Made by a program: the position numbers and the translations under genes. A stretch of 23,148 bases of DNA from a virus, in the IMG/VR virus record IMGVR_UViG_3300031565_007827, positions 1 to 23,148 of that record, one strand, 5' to 3'. Position 1 is the stretch's first letter, and every line of letters begins with the position of its first letter. Positions 2,636 through 11,755 of the stretch are shown here, one piece after another. Under the pieces are notes generated by a model, which did not search any database, was not told where the DNA came from, and saw only the letters and a program-made list of their open reading frames with translations.

Positions 2636-2941
2636 ATGATTATTTTAGAAAAATTGAATGAATCAGAATATTTAGCCAGAAGAGAGAATGCCGGTTGGAA
2701 TTACAGAGTAATTGTATGTTGCGGCGAATCGTTGGAAATCGGAAAATCATATACTAGAAGGTCATCCGTAAATATAAATGGCATTATGTCACTATGTGAA
2801 AAATGTTCAGAATTGCTGGGAGTAGAACACGATAGCAACGCAGTCTACACAGATCTTGAAAAAGAGGATGCATTGGCAGTCCTCACTGGTGATATGAGCG
2901 CTGAGGAATATGTAGGATATTATTCAACTGAGGAGCAATAA
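2636..2941 (+). CDS. Small cysteine-containing hypothetical protein, 101 aa
   Basis: I do not recognise this protein. It has 101 residues and four cysteines: a CC pair in VIVCCGES near residue 30 and a CEKC pair near residue 60, which together could bind one metal ion. The C-terminal third is acidic. AGGAG lies about six bases before the ATG. Its stop codon overlaps the start of the radical SAM gene (TAATG), so the two are translationally coupled and may act together. A direct link between them is inference from position only. Confidence 0.7.
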   Translation: MIILEKLNESEYLARRENAGWNYRVIVCCGESLEIGKSYTRRSSVNINGIMSLCEKCSELLGVEHDSNAVYTDLEKEDALAVLTGDMSAEEYVGYYSTEEQ

Positions 2942-3669
2942 TGATAATCTATGAACCAAGAGGAAAGGCTCTTGAATACAGTCCGCTTGCAGCTAATTTA
3001 TACAGAGGCTGTTCGCACGGTTGCACGTATTGTTATGCACCGAGCGCAACTTTCAAGGACAGATCATTGTTTCATTCAGAAGAATTCATTCAGCCGCGAA
3101 AAGATGTCCTTGCTCAATTTGAAAAAGATTGCTGTAAGTTTTCAGGAGATCCGAGAGAATGTTTGTTTTCGTTCACGACTGACCCTTACCAGCCGATTGA
3201 AATTGATAATAACCTGACGAGAGACGCGTTAAAAATAGGGTTGAAATATAATATTTTCCCGGTGATTTTGACCAAAGGTGGCAAACTGGCAACCCGTGAC
3301 TTTGATATTCTTAAGAAATTTAAGAATAGAAAATTTGGGGCCACATTAACAACTGATTCTGATGTTGAATCAAAAGAATGGGAACCAGGGGCAAGCTTGC
3401 CATGTGATCGAATTGAATCGCTTGAGGACGCGTGGACGCTTGGTATTTTTACATTTGTGAGCTTTGAGCCAGTCATAAATCCTAACGCAGTCTTTAGATT
3501 GATCGATGAGACACACGAATTTGTTGATTTTTATAAGGTCGGAAAATTGAATTATCACCCACTTTCTAAAACAATTGATTGGGTCCGATTCCGCGAGTCA
3601 GTGATGGAAAAACTTGAATCTCTTGGAAAGCGATACATGATTAAAAAAGATCTTTTGAAGGCTTCGTGA
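2941..3669 (+). CDS. Radical SAM protein, spore photoproduct lyase (SplB)-like
   Basis: Radical SAM enzymes use a 4Fe-4S cluster to split S-adenosylmethionine and form a 5'-deoxyadenosyl radical. The cluster motif CxxxCxxC is visible as GCSHGCTYCY, with cysteines at residues 24, 28 and 31 of 242. The N terminus (EPRGKALEYSPLAANLYRGC) is typical of a family found in many phages and prophages and related to SplB, which repairs UV-induced thymine dimers. At 242 residues it is shorter than bacterial SplB and keeps mainly the barrel. Repair of, or chemistry on, phage DNA is the family-based guess; the substrate is not known. It is coupled to the small Cys protein upstream. Confidence 0.85.
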   Translation: MIIYEPRGKALEYSPLAANLYRGCSHGCTYCYAPSATFKDRSLFHSEEFIQPRKDVLAQFEKDCCKFSGDPRECLFSFTTDPYQPIEIDNNLTRDALKIGLKYNIFPVILTKGGKLATRDFDILKKFKNRKFGATLTTDSDVESKEWEPGASLPCDRIESLEDAWTLGIFTFVSFEPVINPNAVFRLIDETHEFVDFYKVGKLNYHPLSKTIDWVRFRESVMEKLESLGKRYMIKKDLLKAS

Positions 3670-6218: not shown

Positions 6219-6404
6219 ATGGACTATAACAGATTTATTTTTTCTCTGCTTTGCGATGAGTGGCTGCAACGTGTAAGCGGAAAATTCCGGTCAATCCGGG
6301 GAAAATTAACCGCAGCCAAATTGGCAAAACGGAACCGCACAGTTGTAGGCTGTGTATGGGGCGCCAGCCACATAAGTCCCTTTAAGCTAAAAAAAAGCGA
6401 ATAA
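6219..6404 (+). CDS. Possible small basic protein, 61 aa
   Basis: An open frame of 61 codons gives a strongly basic protein (central part RSIRGKLTAAKLAKRNRT) without a recognised domain. The ribosome site is poor: AGGG lies about 11 bases before the ATG. Competing open frames exist on the other strand. The same DNA contains several perfect inverted repeats (GTGGCTG 6260-6266 with CAGCCAC 6365-6371; GGCTGC 6262-6267 with GCAGCC 6312-6317; CACAG 6338-6342 with CTGTG 6350-6354), so it could be a structured RNA instead. I keep it as a low-confidence gene. Confidence 0.35.
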   Translation: MDYNRFIFSLLCDEWLQRVSGKFRSIRGKLTAAKLAKRNRTVVGCVWGASHISPFKLKKSE

Positions 6405-6417
6405 AAATAATTAAGGG

Positions 6418-6446
6418 GGAGCGGTAAGTGCAAGCACGGCCGCTCC
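6418..6446 (+). repeat. Stem-loop just before recT
   Basis: The perfect seven-base arms GGAGCGG (6418-6424) and CCGCTCC (6440-6446) enclose a second small stem, GTG/CAC, with loop CAAG. No T run follows, so it is not a terminator. It sits 30 bases before the start codon at 6476 and could affect mRNA stability or translation of recT. Confidence 0.5.
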
Positions 6447-6475
6447 TGTCCAACAAACATTAAAAAGGAAACTAA

Positions 6476-7717
6476 ATGAGGAAAGAGCATATTATTGAAA
6501 AGTCTATTGCTTTTCCACAGGCGTTTAAAATTTTACCCATTGTTAACGGAAGGCCTGAAGAAAGAGGGACTTGGGCAGCATATCCGAACGATGAGTCTAC
6601 TATTTTTTGGGTGGATACTTCCCACACTGAAGCTCAAAAATTTTACTTTGAACAATTAAAAAACGAGGAGATGTACAAAATGTCAAAAGAATTAACCGTT
6701 ACTGAAGATCGGACGATCAAAAGCATGATCGCAGAAAACATGAAAGCGATAAAAAGCATTCTTCCGAAGCACATCACACCGGAAAGATTTGCTCGGATTG
6801 CTTACACGGCAATCGTTTCAAATCCTATTCTCGCAAGATGTTCACAATTATCTCTCATCAACGCGATTATAGAGTCGTCGATACTTGGTCTTGAAATAGG
6901 GGGATCAATGCATGAGGCATCACTAATACCTTTTAAAAATAATAAGACTAATCCGGCGACCTATGACGCCACACTTGTTGTCGAGTATCCAGGACTTATT
7001 AAGCTGGCAAAAAACACAGGAGATGTAAGGAATATATCGGCACATCCTGTCTTTGCTAATGACCAATTCAGATACAATTACGGTATCAACCAAGACCTTG
7101 TTCATATCCCTACAACTGGCATAAAAGGGGATCTCATAAACGCTTATTGCATTATTTGGTATATAAACGGTGGAATTGATTTCGAAGTTGTCGGGCCTCA
7201 TGAAGCCGAAGCTGCAAAAAATAAATCGGCGACTAAATTCAAAAAAGATTCTCCCTGGAATCAAGAAGAAAATATTCCAGCAATGTGGGTTAAAACAGCA
7301 ATTCGCAGAATTATGAAACGAGTTCCAAAAGCGGCAGAGCAGCGATTTATCCAAGTTGACGGCATGTCTGGTTCTGATATGGGTCACCTGAAAGATAATG
7401 CTGGGATAGTAAATATCACAGTAGATGATTTGCACAGTATTTCAATCGATGGTGAAAAAAAGACACCGCAATCTGAAAAAAAACAGACTGGTAAATCAAA
7501 AGCAAATCAAGATGATTCTGCAGATCCATCAGTAGAAGCATCTGAATTGCAAAAAGAAGTCAGACAAGCAATCTATCTCGCCGCGCAATTCCCAGAAATA
7601 TTTGCGGAAGCACTCAATTTTTTTGGGATTGAAAAATTACCGGTTGAAAAATTTGATACTGTAACAGCTGTTAAAGTTTGTCAAAAAATCAGTGAACTTG
7701 TTGACTCTCAAAACTAA
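6476..7717 (+). CDS. RecT-family single-strand annealing protein
   Basis: RecT proteins bind single-stranded DNA and anneal complementary strands in phage recombination and replication. The core lies in about residues 80-310: LPKHITPERFARIAYTAI, then NPILARCSQLSLINAIIESS, the LGLEIGG segment, YPGLIKLAK, and AMWVKTAIRRIMKRVPK near its end, all typical of RecT. The C-terminal 100 residues are charged and variable. The 413-residue ORF carries about 68 extra residues at its N terminus. The long start at 6476 has a good site (AAGGAAA), but ATG 6680 also has GGAG nine bases upstream and would give a normal-sized RecT of 345 residues. No RecE, lambda Exo or YqaJ exonuclease is adjacent; the next genes encode a split ATPase. 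Confidence 0.9.
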   Translation: MRKEHIIEKSIAFPQAFKILPIVNGRPEERGTWAAYPNDESTIFWVDTSHTEAQKFYFEQLKNEEMYKMSKELTVTEDRTIKSMIAENMKAIKSILPKHITPERFARIAYTAIVSNPILARCSQLSLINAIIESSILGLEIGGSMHEASLIPFKNNKTNPATYDATLVVEYPGLIKLAKNTGDVRNISAHPVFANDQFRYNYGINQDLVHIPTTGIKGDLINAYCIIWYINGGIDFEVVGPHEAEAAKNKSATKFKKDSPWNQEENIPAMWVKTAIRRIMKRVPKAAEQRFIQVDGMSGSDMGHLKDNAGIVNITVDDLHSISIDGEKKTPQSEKKQTGKSKANQDDSADPSVEASELQKEVRQAIYLAAQFPEIFAEALNFFGIEKLPVEKFDTVTAVKVCQKISELVDSQN

Positions 7718-7726
7718 AGGTAAATC

Positions 7727-8809
7727 ATGATTACACACATTCGTACAAAAGGATTCAAGGGCTTAGATATTGATGAAGATATCCCGGATAAAGTCATTTA
7801 TAACGGTAAAAACCGGTCTGGTAAATCAACCAGGTCTGAAGCCATAGCATTTGCCATCCTTGGACATGTCCCGTTTTCACTGACCGGAAAGCTTCCAAGT
7901 GACATTCTAGATAGTTTCGGAACGGATTCTATCTCATCAGCAGTTACAATAAAAGGGGTAGAATTCGGGCGTAAAATTTGGCGAAATGATGCCGGAAAAG
8001 TTTCAACCTCTTTGCAGATCGATAAAAAAAGAGCAAGCGCAGATATATTTTCAATGGCTCTCGGAAGGGTTGGAGCTCCAAAAATTGTCGACGTCTCACA
8101 ATTCATGGCTCAGTCGGATGCTAAAAAAGTTGATACACTTTTTGACCTTTTCCCCAATCCTGAATTGTCAGAAATTGATCAAGAAATATCTAATGCAAAA
8201 GAGGACGTCAGCAGGATTGAAAAGCAAAAGGATGGAGCTGAATCGACAATTACCAGACTAACTAATTCAAAGAACGCTATCGAAAAACCCGCCGGAACAA
8301 TTGCAGAGATCCAGGCTTCGATTCTTGAATATGATAATAAGATTGCTTATGTGCGGGAGCAGATCAAGCAGGATGAAATCAAGGAAGCTGAGCGCAAAGC
8401 TATAATCGAAGGAGAAAGGCAGGAACGGGAAAGGGCTGAGAAAGAAGCGGCTGACATGCGCGTCATCGCAGAAACTAAAATTAATGTAATTGAAGAGAGT
8501 TTCCTTCCCGACGATGAAATCACTCTCAAAACAGATGAAGACTGGACGCGGCACAATATTGATAATATGCCTGATAGTCCTGAGATGGCTAAGAATGACC
8601 GGATAATTTCAGGGCTTGAACAGCAAATTTCAAAATTAGATCCGCCGTGTATCGAATTTGAAAATTTTGATCAAAAAAAATCGGATTACGCGATAGTGTC
8701 TGATTCGATCCTGACAATCATTGAAGCTTTGACCGGTGCTGGTTGTGAAGCATGCGCGGCTCTTGTCGTTGCCAAAATGGAACTTAAAAAATTCAAGGGG
8801 ATATCATGA
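7727..8809 (+). CDS. SbcC/Rad50-like ATPase, N-terminal half with Walker A
   Basis: The 360-residue protein begins like SbcC/Rad50/SMC ATPases: a strand-rich start (ITHIRTKGFKGL), then a Walker A motif GKNRSGKST at residues 27-35. From about residue 150 to 250 it is coiled coil (IDQEISNAKEDVSRIEKQKD and later ERERAEKEAADMR). Near the C terminus is a CxxC (GCEAC, cysteines 340 and 343) in the place expected for a Rad50 zinc hook. There is no ABC signature and no Walker B; both are in the next gene, which overlaps by ATGA. The two products should assemble into one ATPase head with the coils meeting at the hook. The position after recT suggests a role in end processing or recombination. AAAGGT lies six bases before the ATG. 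Confidence 0.8.
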   Translation: MITHIRTKGFKGLDIDEDIPDKVIYNGKNRSGKSTRSEAIAFAILGHVPFSLTGKLPSDILDSFGTDSISSAVTIKGVEFGRKIWRNDAGKVSTSLQIDKKRASADIFSMALGRVGAPKIVDVSQFMAQSDAKKVDTLFDLFPNPELSEIDQEISNAKEDVSRIEKQKDGAESTITRLTNSKNAIEKPAGTIAEIQASILEYDNKIAYVREQIKQDEIKEAERKAIIEGERQERERAEKEAADMRVIAETKINVIEESFLPDDEITLKTDEDWTRHNIDNMPDSPEMAKNDRIISGLEQQISKLDPPCIEFENFDQKKSDYAIVSDSILTIIEALTGAGCEACAALVVAKMELKKFKGIS

Positions 8810-9372
8810 GCGATATTGAGACAATGAACAATATTATTACCGGTCTGACGCAAAAAAAGAAAAACCTGCAAGCCGATGTAGAGGTTTTACTGAAGCTATC
8901 CGGAATTAATGAAGAGATTGAAAAGGCGATTCAGGACCGTGACGGATATAATTCTGTTCTGATTGAAGCCAAAAAACGCCGGGATGATGCTAAGAAAAAG
9001 AAAGCCGGATCAGTCAGTAAAACCATGTCGGCAATTGCTGAAAAGATGAATTCAGTACTTCCCCATGGGAAAGCTGTTTTTTCCTACGATGAAGACGACG
9101 ACGGAAAAAGAACTATGTTGATCGGCTGGGAAAACGAAGGAAAGACAACTCCGTACAAGGGGCTTTCAGGCGGTGAGGGAAAGATCTTTGATGCCGATTT
9201 GGCCCACGTTCTGGACGCAAATATTATCATCGTCGAGGCTGCGGAGCTTGATTCGGAAAACCTGGAAAAAACGCTTATTGAACTGGCAAATCTGGACAAG
9301 CAGGTGATTGTTAACACTTGTCACCCGATTAAATTTAAAATTCCTGAGCCGTTTGTGAAAATGGAGGTGTGA
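8806..9372 (+). CDS. SbcC/Rad50-like ATPase, C-terminal half with ABC signature
   Basis: The 188-residue protein supplies what the upstream protein lacks. Residues 1-66 are coiled coil (IEKAIQDRDGYNSVLIEAKK). Then come the ABC signature KGLSGGEGK at about 118-126, a Walker B-like strand ANIIIVEAAELD at about 138-149, and an H-loop-like VIVNTCH with histidine 173. In the Walker B the usual aspartate is valine (VE instead of DE), so hydrolysis may be weakened. AAGGGG precedes the ATG by six bases and the start overlaps the stop of the first half, so equal production by coupled translation is likely. The combined length of 548 residues is close to T4 gp46. No SbcD/gp47-type nuclease gene is seen nearby. 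Confidence 0.8.
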   Translation: MSDIETMNNIITGLTQKKKNLQADVEVLLKLSGINEEIEKAIQDRDGYNSVLIEAKKRRDDAKKKKAGSVSKTMSAIAEKMNSVLPHGKAVFSYDEDDDGKRTMLIGWENEGKTTPYKGLSGGEGKIFDADLAHVLDANIIIVEAAELDSENLEKTLIELANLDKQVIVNTCHPIKFKIPEPFVKMEV

Positions 9373-9374
9373 TT

Positions 9375-9779
9375 ATGAAAATTATTAAAATAAAAGCCGC
9401 TGATCCGATGCCGGAAGGTTGCAAGCAGCCGGAACCAGTTATGATTGAAGTTTCCGGTAATATAGCTGAATTGACATATAAACATAATGAAGCATGCCGT
9501 CTAAGTCTGAAAGAAGTGAAAAAAATATTTGACATGGAGGCAACAAAGCTTTTTTATGCACTTATTGAGTCTTTACCACAAGGGGTTATAGAGCCACTTA
9601 TCATAAAACTTTTGCAACACAAGGTATCACTGTACCACGGAGTTATCGGCCAAAGTTATACCACAAAGCCTGTTTTTGTTAAAAAAGCGGTTAAAAATCC
9701 ATGCCCGGAATGCGGCGGAGAATGGGATGCGACAAAAACTCATCCTTGCCCACATTGCGGAAACGAAATACCTTTTTAG
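9375..9779 (+). CDS. Hypothetical protein with C-terminal zinc ribbon
   Basis: The 134-residue protein ends in a clear zinc ribbon, CPEC at 110-113 and CPHC at 125-128, each followed by a Gly. The first 100 residues have no assignment; they include a strand-rich start and helices (SLKEVKKIFDMEATKLFYAL). I chose ATG 9375 because GGAGG lies seven bases before it; the GTG at 9369 has no room for one. It directly follows the split ATPase, so it may be an accessory factor in recombination, but that is inference from position. Confidence 0.65.
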   Translation: MKIIKIKAADPMPEGCKQPEPVMIEVSGNIAELTYKHNEACRLSLKEVKKIFDMEATKLFYALIESLPQGVIEPLIIKLLQHKVSLYHGVIGQSYTTKPVFVKKAVKNPCPECGGEWDATKTHPCPHCGNEIPF

Positions 9780-9788
9780 CGAGGAAAA

Positions 9789-9989
9789 ATGACCAGGTTA
9801 AGGCTTGTTGCTCAATCCAAATTAGATGGACGCGATACATGGAATGACGAATTCTGGTCATATAATCCAGCTGTTTTTCGTAAGGCTTTCGAAGAAGAAA
9901 AAAGGAAAGAATACTTAAATTTGCGTGCGGTCTTACGTATTATTGAGGAAAAAACTTTTAAACAAATACAACTAGAACAAGGAAAATAA
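9789..9989 (+). CDS. Small charged hypothetical protein, 66 aa
   Basis: I do not recognise this 66-residue protein. It is rich in charged residues, with a probable long helix in the second half (FEEEKRKEYLNLRAVLRIIE). GAGG lies six bases before the ATG. Its stop overlaps the helicase start (TAATG), so it is translated together with the helicase. Confidence 0.6.
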   Translation: MTRLRLVAQSKLDGRDTWNDEFWSYNPAVFRKAFEEEKRKEYLNLRAVLRIIEEKTFKQIQLEQGK

Positions 9990-11755
9990 TGCAACTAAGC
10001 CAGGAACAAAGCAAAGCTGTTCTAACCGAATCAAAACAAGCCCTATGCCTGGCCGGTGCCGGTTCAGGAAAAACGAGGGTGTTGATAAGCAGAATCAATC
10101 ATCTGCTCGAAAATTGTCACGCAAGCCCTTATGAAATTTTAGCGTGTACATTCACGCGCGCGGCTGGGACGGAAATGAAAGAGAGATTGGAAAAGCTTTC
10201 CGGTCCCAAAGCGCACAATGTCACAATCGGAACCCTTCACTCAATAGCACTAAAAATGATCCAGCGTTTTGGTGAAATGATCGGATTAAACCCTGGGAAA
10301 ATCACTATTTATTCAACCTGGGAAGAAAGCTTTTTATTAAAAAACGTCTGCCTGGAGCTTGGATATCACACCGGGAAGACTTTTAAAGGCGTGAAAAAAT
10401 CTGAGATAGACGATGCTTTCAATCTATTTTATACGAAAAAACAACGCAATGAACGCAATTATATTCCGAATGAAATTATGGATGCCTTTTTCGGTCGTTG
10501 CCGCGAAAATAACGCGCTGACTTATGGCATGATCATGACCAGTTTTCTGGATCTGATTCCAAGAATTGGCCACTTTCTAAAATTTAAACATGTGCTGGTA
10601 GACGAGGTTCAGGATTTAGATTCGGTACAATGGAGAATTGTCAAGTTGATTTGTTCGATCTGTGATGCCTCACTGTTTGCAGTCGGTGATCAACAGCAAT
10701 GCATTTACCAATGGCGTGGATCAGATCCAGGCTACTTGATCCGGAACCAGGATAAGTTCGATATTTACAAATTGCGTGATAATTACCGGTCCGATGGCTA
10801 TATTGTTGAAGCCGCAAATCGATTGATCAAGCGCAATGTCAACCGGCTTGATTTGAAAATGAATGCTATTTTGGAAAAGGTTAATAAAGTTAATATTTTC
10901 CAAAACTTTAATTCAGCTACAATTGCTTTTGAAATAGAAAAAACTTTGAAAGAATCCGACGGTACACTAGAAAAAAGCGGATCTATAGCCGTTCTAGCCC
11001 GCAATCATTATCTCTTGGAAAAGCTGTCAGCATTACTCACGGCATCCAAAATCGATCACGAATATCTTGGTAAGAAGACAAAATTCACACAGTCAGAACC
11101 ATTCCGCCGAGTTCACGCTCTTTTGAAATTGGCTGTCAATCCGTTCGATAATTTCTCGTTTCTGCTCGCGAAAGATTATCTTGATTTAACGCCGATAGAA
11201 TATATATCAATCAGGTTGCAGGCAGTCAATAAAAACAAGAGTCATTTCCAAGTCTGGCGCGATGATTATGCTTTTCTACTGCAACATTTAAACGAATTAA
11301 ACGAAGCGATTCGCGAGGAGTCTTTTGAAAAAGTTTTGGATTGGATGCTCGGAGTCACGTTTGAATTTGATTCTGTCCCTGTTTTTGATTTTATCAATGA
11401 ATATCTTGAATCAGCGCACGAACCGACAATCAGAGATTATCTTGACTGGCTGGCGCTCTATGATGTTCAAGACGAGATATCAGACGAGCCTAAAAAGCTA
11501 CAACTTATGACAATTCACGCATCGAAAGGGCTTGAATTTTCGGTGGTGATCATTGCCGGATTGAACGAAGGGATCCTGCCATCTCTGAGAGCCCTAAAAA
11601 GTCAGGACGAGCTTGAAAGTGAAAGGCGTCTGGCTTATGTCGCATTTACGCGGGCGTGTGATCACTTAGTTTTAACATCACGGCCTGTTGAAGTTGAAGG
11701 AAAGTCATCAACCCCAATTTCGCGATTTATCAACGAATCGTTAATTAATACATGA
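9989..11755 (+). CDS. UvrD/PcrA-type superfamily 1 DNA helicase
   Basis: An ATP-dependent 3'-5' DNA helicase of the UvrD/PcrA/Rep group. All core motifs are visible in 588 residues: Walker A AGAGSGKTR at 22-30, DEVQD (Walker B) at 205-209, motif III GDQQQCIYQWRG at 233-244, motif IV LRDNYRS at 262-268, motif V IHASKGLEF at 509-517, and motif VI ERRLAYVAFTRA at 545-556. It is about 130 residues shorter than UvrD (720), mainly in the accessory domains. It stands in a recombination and replication block and may unwind DNA for phage replication or recombination. AAGGA lies six bases before the ATG, which overlaps the preceding stop. Confidence 0.93.
   Translation: MQLSQEQSKAVLTESKQALCLAGAGSGKTRVLISRINHLLENCHASPYEILACTFTRAAGTEMKERLEKLSGPKAHNVTIGTLHSIALKMIQRFGEMIGLNPGKITIYSTWEESFLLKNVCLELGYHTGKTFKGVKKSEIDDAFNLFYTKKQRNERNYIPNEIMDAFFGRCRENNALTYGMIMTSFLDLIPRIGHFLKFKHVLVDEVQDLDSVQWRIVKLICSICDASLFAVGDQQQCIYQWRGSDPGYLIRNQDKFDIYKLRDNYRSDGYIVEAANRLIKRNVNRLDLKMNAILEKVNKVNIFQNFNSATIAFEIEKTLKESDGTLEKSGSIAVLARNHYLLEKLSALLTASKIDHEYLGKKTKFTQSEPFRRVHALLKLAVNPFDNFSFLLAKDYLDLTPIEYISIRLQAVNKNKSHFQVWRDDYAFLLQHLNELNEAIREESFEKVLDWMLGVTFEFDSVPVFDFINEYLESAHEPTIRDYLDWLALYDVQDEISDEPKKLQLMTIHASKGLEFSVVIIAGLNEGILPSLRALKSQDELESERRLAYVAFTRACDHLVLTSRPVEVEGKSSTPISRFINESLINT

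Follow-up and report, generated by a model that had tools for sequence, protein, structure and literature searches.

Phages of sulfate-reducing and related bacteria carry a two-chain SMC/Rad50-like ATPase beside an annealing protein and a UvrD helicase

Introduction

Rad50, SbcC and SMC proteins are known as single polypeptides that fold back on themselves at a hook or hinge. Rad50 of Pyrococcus furiosus also exists in two-chain form (PDB 1ii8, 3qkr), as laboratory constructs. In the Gabija system, GajA carries a TOPRIM nuclease domain. Archaea-specific SMC-related proteins (ASRP) have been described (PMC9389158), and SMC genes have been mentioned near recT in Firmicutes phages (PMC8093625). 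Our literature search found no paper on a natural Rad50 split or on the module described here.

The sequence analysed, hereafter the window, is an IMG/VR virus record of 23,148 bases. An earlier note, made from its letters, had proposed that a Rad50/SbcC-like ATPase is divided between two genes at a putative zinc hook, next to recT. Here we compare this pair with related loci (numbered L) in viral contigs and genomes.

Results and Discussion

The two ATPase genes of the window

The pair and its motifs are arranged as follows.

7727..8809, + strand: N-chain (ORF1) of the split SMC/Rad50-like ATPase, 360 aa, assigned through its homologs, with AAA_23 above the gathering score in L136, L154 and L155
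7805..7828, + strand: Walker A motif GKNRSGKS, N-chain residues 27-34
8741..8755, + strand: hook-like GCEAC motif, N-chain residues 339-343, followed by 17 residues and the stop, with a helix-turn-helix around the motif in the model
8795..8800, + strand: ribosome-binding site AAGGGG for the C-chain, read from the sequence
8806..8809, + strand: ATGA overlap of N-chain stop and C-chain start, read from the sequence
8806..9372, + strand: C-chain (ORF2) of the split SMC/Rad50-like ATPase, 188 aa, starting with a helix
9163..9177, + strand: ABC signature LSGGE, C-chain residues 120-124
9223..9252, + strand: IIIVEAAELD, spanning the Walker B-like strand and the D-loop; only one acidic residue occupies the active position
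9319..9324, + strand: H-loop, the CH of NTCHP

The features that the earlier note had assigned to the first protein (Walker A, a coiled coil, here beginning at about residue 146, and GCEAC 17 residues before the end) are all present, as are the coiled-coil start, LSGGE signature and H-loop of the second; the ATGA overlap with AAGGGG ahead of the second gene was confirmed in the sequence. The window N-chain scores 13.0 bits against AAA_23 (PF13476; cut-off 27), and the corresponding proteins of L136, L154 and L155 reach 36.6, 36.4 and 27.9 bits. It also matches the ASRP profile NF045487 weakly (E 0.001), and folded alone (P0001) it gave a poor model (pLDDT 52). A profile built from five C-chains finds the SMC3 head at E 1e-4 and C-lobe chains of Rad50 at E 0.009-0.02. 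Single-protein scans of the viral contigs returned only L002, whose M15-type peptidase-like protein (2008-2442), from an unrelated virus, has in common with the N-chain the octapeptide HNIDNMPD (8552-8575, N-chain residues 276-283); this looks like chance.

The Walker B-like strand described earlier is there, but the canonical acid pair is not: IIIVEAAELD has one acid where Rad50 has D-E. In all C-chains the strand ends in a lone Glu, and the residue before it is V, Q, F, I, L or Y. Because the loop from this position to the D-loop Asp is shorter than that of Rad50, the Glu may be the counterpart either of the Walker B Asp or of the catalytic Glu. A single acid also occurs in the single-chain relatives L145 and L114 (L141 has DD and L158 DN), and thus the loss of a Walker B acid may be older than the split. 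With one acid only, the ATPase cycle is probably atypical, and hydrolysis may be weak, altered or even absent.

A conserved split in phages of sulfate-reducing and related bacteria

The first relative, L117 (on the same contig as L135), was found by a DNA pattern for an unusual RecT motif, MWxKTAxRR; the same pattern gave L104, whose N-chain start is identical, and alignment found further loci in viral contigs and genomes. Both ORFs recur, their conserved ends unchanged, in 15 loci besides the window, at about 28-54% identity, and this pattern is therefore far beyond chance. These are L135, L136, L137, L139, L144, L147 and L149-L153 in viral contigs and L154-L157 in genomes (the count includes L135 and leaves out the L104 copy; for L137, L150 and L157 the available sequence either stops inside the pair or has only one of the chains). 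L154 and L155 are deltaproteobacterial MAGs, L156 is from Desulfovibrionaceae and L157 from Desulfovibrio sp. ZJ369; the closest relative of the window N-chain is that of L137 (50-54%). The two-chain ATPase is carried by phages of sulfate-reducing and related bacteria. Searches elsewhere were negative: tblastn with either chain against 50,697 phage records gave no match, a plasmid search gave a chance match to the C-chain only, and among the 80 viral RecT loci closest to the window RecT (P0003; alignment scan) there was no pair, the only ATPases being single chains in RecET loci.

Walker A is kept in all 15 N-chains compared, and in all 15 GCxxC lies 13-23 residues from the C-terminus, with the variant C-x3-C in L153. 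Every C-chain that reaches that far has the LSGGE-type signature, and most have in common a starting helix with a consensus near MDxxxMxxxIxGLxxxxxxLRxxxxxFxKAxGL. The junctions themselves differ by lineage. ATGA overlaps are found in the window, L147, L149, L151 and L153; an eight-base overlap, ATGGATAA or ATGGATAG, in L154, L156 and L157; abutting or close genes in L135, L139 and L155; and intervening genes in L136 (one, of 181 aa) and L152 (two ORFs).

Two observations could be taken to mean that the split is a sequencing error, a recent mutation or a pseudogene, namely the existence of single-chain relatives and the common frame of both halves in L135, L139 and L155. We regard this as hardly conceivable, given the same split position in 15 other loci, the separate ribosome sites of the halves, the other genes between them in two loci, and dN/dS values of 0.12-0.30 in near pairs, which indicate purifying selection. 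The split proteins group as one branch, with moderate support (70/41 and 77/85), in the trees of both halves, so that a single ancestral split is likely though not proven. Close relatives with one continuous chain, which the earlier note had named as speaking against a genuine division, were not found: all loci of the split branch are split, and single chains occur among the outgroups only. A programmed frameshift was also considered as a common mechanism and rejected, since in the window the ORF2-frame stop TAA at 8785 leaves few bases for it, junctions differ by lineage, and genes lie between the halves in L136 and L152. Conservation of the split, intervening genes in two lineages, selection and trees together exclude sequencing error, a recent break and a shared frameshift.

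Single-chain relatives and the position of the hook

The single-chain relatives, of 620 aa in L114, 701 in L145, 710 in L141 and L142, and 686 in L158 and L159 (Nitrospirota), stand in the gene order SSAP-ATPase-UvrD, as in the split loci. The CPIC hook of L114 aligns with the GCxxC of the N-chains, which places the split point directly behind the hook; the coil that comes next in L114 has been lost. The gene break at the hook, as suggested earlier, is thereby borne out: it falls directly after a conserved helix-GCxxC-helix, in register with CPIC. GCxxC between two predicted helices is a putative zinc hook, or at least a hook-like motif.

A predicted composite head

As a proxy for the pair we used L155, in which the two genes lie in one frame with only a TGA between them and can be read through (NCBI table 4). 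The joined protein was modelled with AlphaFold2 from an alignment of 26 rows containing single chains and separate halves. The read-through model has a mean pLDDT of 85.6 (about 96 in the head) and a pTM of 0.65. In order, it comprises an N-lobe (residues 1-146), two helices spanning 149-186 and 194-259, a linker of low confidence (260-316), a tip in which a helix (317-330), a turn with GCSAC (332-336) and a second helix (337-347) follow one another, the C-chain helix to 438, and the C-lobe. The helices around the GCxxC are of modest confidence (pLDDT 63-84), and the coiled coil on the C-chain side is about 80 residues long. No SMC hinge was seen in the model; helix-GCxxC-helix stands in its place.

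Residues of both halves make one head of SMC/Rad50/RecF type in the model, which agrees with the composite ATPase head expected in the earlier note. The structure matches are SMC (5xei, Z 17.5), MukB (16.8), Rad50 (4ncj, 15.8), RecF (15.7) and SbcC (15.7), and Foldseek gives a probability of 1.00 against SMC, RecF and Rad50 heads. The model shows that the halves are predicted to fit as one head when joined; being a fused proxy, with natural single chains in its alignment, it is no proof that separate chains associate. There is a precedent in the PDB, where Rad50 C-lobes are deposited as chains of their own (1ii8_B, 174 aa; 3qkr_B).

An annealing protein with an exchanged core

The stop codon of the window recT lies 9 nt upstream of the N-chain gene. 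The protein is chimeric.

6476..7717, + strand: RecT annealing protein, 413 aa, chimeric; PF03837 E 2.3e-26 over residues 103-297, with SSAP2-like flanks
6491..6670, + strand: N-terminal extension of RecT, related by homology to the central part of SSAP2 proteins (FPQAFKxLP...TWAxYPxDE); SSAP2 profile residues 6-65, E 2.6e-12
7538..7714, + strand: C-terminal tail of RecT in common with SSAP2 (AVKxxxKxSELVDxQN); SSAP2 profile residues 322-412, E 7.7e-9

The window protein is a clear RecT (NCBIfam rect 140.9 bits, cut-off 52.65). Most relatives have in its place SSAP2 (about 400 aa; phrog_32428, of unknown function, matches part of it), at 4644-5861 in L136, 6454-7662 in L137, 6760-7998 in L139, and also in L144, L147, L149, L152 and L154-L157 as well as in the single-chain loci L141, L145 and L159. 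The N-terminal extension of the window RecT is 37% identical to L137 SSAP2 over 82 aa by BLAST, and its tail matches the L137 tail with E 3e-14; L137, the closest N-chain relative, thus has an SSAP2 with the same C-tail as the window RecT. The SSAP2 profile matches the window RecT only outside the RecT core, likewise the RecT of L135 but not that of L114. Profile comparison of SSAP2 with RecT revealed no common core; SSAP2 matched no RecT-like profile and had no convincing match in the PDB by sequence profile.

The simplest reading of these sequences is that a RecT core replaced the SSAP2 core while the flanks stayed, perhaps as the flanks contact something constant in the module. Position and the pieces in common with RecT suggest that SSAP2 is an annealing protein, possibly of a new, undescribed SSAP family. 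The C-terminal part of Red beta is needed for recombination beyond annealing and for binding Red alpha (PMC5052646), and the core swap points to the tail of the annealing protein as a docking part here as well. Of the earlier suggestion that the pair may be the partner of RecT, adjacency to an annealing protein holds, but not RecT specifically, which is a minority choice among loci that mostly have SSAP2.

Module neighbours and the missing nuclease

Downstream of the pair the window continues with two further genes.

9369..9779, + strand: small zinc-ribbon protein; L135 and L150 have homologs in the equivalent position (E 4e-10 and 2e-7)
9989..11755, + strand: UvrD/Rep-type helicase, 588 aa, the conserved last member of the module; UvrD-helicase PF00580 E 8e-52

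In the window and most loci the pair is followed by a UvrD homolog, the most constant neighbour besides the annealing protein; the order is annealing protein, N-chain, C-chain, UvrD helicase. In L139 (9580-11509) and L152 (10257-11455) the UvrD gene is broken into two ORFs, possibly by a frameshift. A radical SAM protein resembling spore photoproduct lyase is encoded at 2941-3669 of the window, with a homolog downstream of the module in L136 (11430-12182, E 2e-53). L144, a Desulfovibrio-type virus, has repetitive GC-rich sequence of GGCAAGGCACGGC-like units upstream of SSAP2 (6392-6850) and between its two ATPase genes (8990-9160).

The lack of an adjacent SbcD/gp47 or RecE/Exo nuclease, remarked on earlier, extends to 16 virus records including the window, some of which are fragments: Mre11/SbcD (Metallophos, PF00149), YqaJ (PF09588), DUF3799 (PF12684), PDDEXK_1 (PF12705) and RNase_T were all absent from them, and the controls for YqaJ, DUF3799, PDDEXK_1 and RNase_T were positive. 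As a control, PF00149, a family much broader than SbcD, was detected in 14 of 14 named genomes. The module might still draw on a nuclease from a different family or on one supplied by the host. That the pair is a phage Rad50 borrowing a host Mre11/SbcD nuclease for end processing would suit its Rad50-type head and the SbcD-type phosphoesterase that bacterial hosts usually have (as far as the broader PF00149 speaks for it), yet we consider it improbable in view of the altered active-site residues of the ATPase, the lack of any phage Mre11 in the 16 records, and UvrD as the constant partner.

The missing nuclease partner also bears on a second reading, that the pair is a RecF-like mediator, a clamp recognising DNA that is gapped or coated with SSB and loading the annealing protein, with no action at ends and no working hook. 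In favour are the high rank of RecF among the structural matches, the short coiled coil, the atypical Walker B and the possibility that UvrD strips proteins from DNA. The helix-GCxxC-helix tip, which RecF is without, is nevertheless conserved in every N-chain, and the coiled coil on the C-chain side still measures about 80 residues; the mediator reading is accordingly unlikely, if the less so of the two.

An ATPase next to a UvrD helicase further recalls defence, and the two could form a phage-carried module of Gabija or Lamassu type. In PADLOC the helicase matches GajB models best (E 2e-80), but these are themselves UvrD-family helicases, so that this match is generic; the matches of the ATPase are weak (LmuB/JetC), and GajA models match the relative L155 at Walker A only (E 0.002). 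No TOPRIM or effector nuclease domain was found (for TOPRIM, no Pfam match above cut-off in either window chain), and an annealing protein adjoins in nearly all loci that reach that far. We therefore think a defence role very unlikely.

Proposed working of the module

That the pair represents the N- and C-lobes of one SMC/Rad50-type ATPase, acting in an annealing protein-UvrD module in the manner outlined here, is in our judgement rather probable; support is good for the two-chain ATPase and for the module, and the order of action is what we infer. The ATPase was probably split once, just after the hook, and its two chains would come together as a single head bearing a short coiled coil. ATP would close two such heads on duplex DNA or a DNA end, and the N-chain tips, on their flexible linker, may pair through the Cys motifs. 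The UvrD helicase would unwind the DNA, and the annealing protein, held by its conserved tail, would coat the exposed strand and anneal it, such that clamp and helicase would replace the exonuclease of RecET or Red. In this scheme the composite head is a prediction, and we infer assembly of separate chains, zinc binding and loading of the annealing protein. More tentatively, and as a possibility we would not yet favour, these loci may encode a nuclease-free phage recombination machine in which a two-chain clamp and UvrD generate or expose single strands and hand them through a conserved tail to an interchangeable annealing protein. SSAP2 would then be an undescribed annealing-protein family, its core exchanged for that of RecT in some phages.

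A natural split at the hook, conserved over a long time, would mean that the covalent link is not essential, and it provides a natural tool for studying head assembly and hook function apart. The module also raises the question of how a phage without its own exonuclease feeds its annealing protein.

Comparison with known systems

Like Rad50/SbcC (T4 gp46), the pair has Walker A in its N-lobe, LSGGE in its C-lobe, a coiled coil between them, a CxxC near the tip and the same predicted head fold. It differs in its two genes, short coiled coil, GCxxC instead of the usual CPxC, one Walker B acid, and the lack of a detected Mre11/SbcD. It may work like a Rad50/RecF-type clamp, and we do not class it as Rad50 because it departs from Rad50 in chain number, Mre11 partner and Walker B acid pair. 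RecF, a recombination mediator, has an SMC-type head (Z 15.7) but is one chain without a hook, whereas the window pair is two chains with a conserved Cys motif. ASRP belong to the SMC superfamily and have a zinc hook, and differ in being archaeal and single-chain. Gabija (GajA and GajB) resembles the module in combining an ATPase with a UvrD helicase.

RecET and Red alpha-beta likewise place an annealing protein, RecT in the window, in a phage operon; the window has no detected exonuclease and has a two-chain ATPase and a UvrD helicase instead. Pseudomonas-type RecET loci (L010, phrog_77) also have an SMC-like ATPase near recT in phage DNA, but in L010 it is one chain (580 aa) with a CPHC hook, recT is preceded by a YqaJ-type RecE, and an RNase_T-family exonuclease lies downstream. 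Across L010-L030 this 580-aa ATPase (e.g. L010, 5915-7657) lies between recT and the exonuclease and has a degenerate signature, LSESE. Similar in chain arrangement is the catalytic domain of P. furiosus Rad50 (PDB 1ii8, 3qkr), in which N-lobe and C-lobe are also separate polypeptides; the split of the window type differs from it in being natural and conserved.
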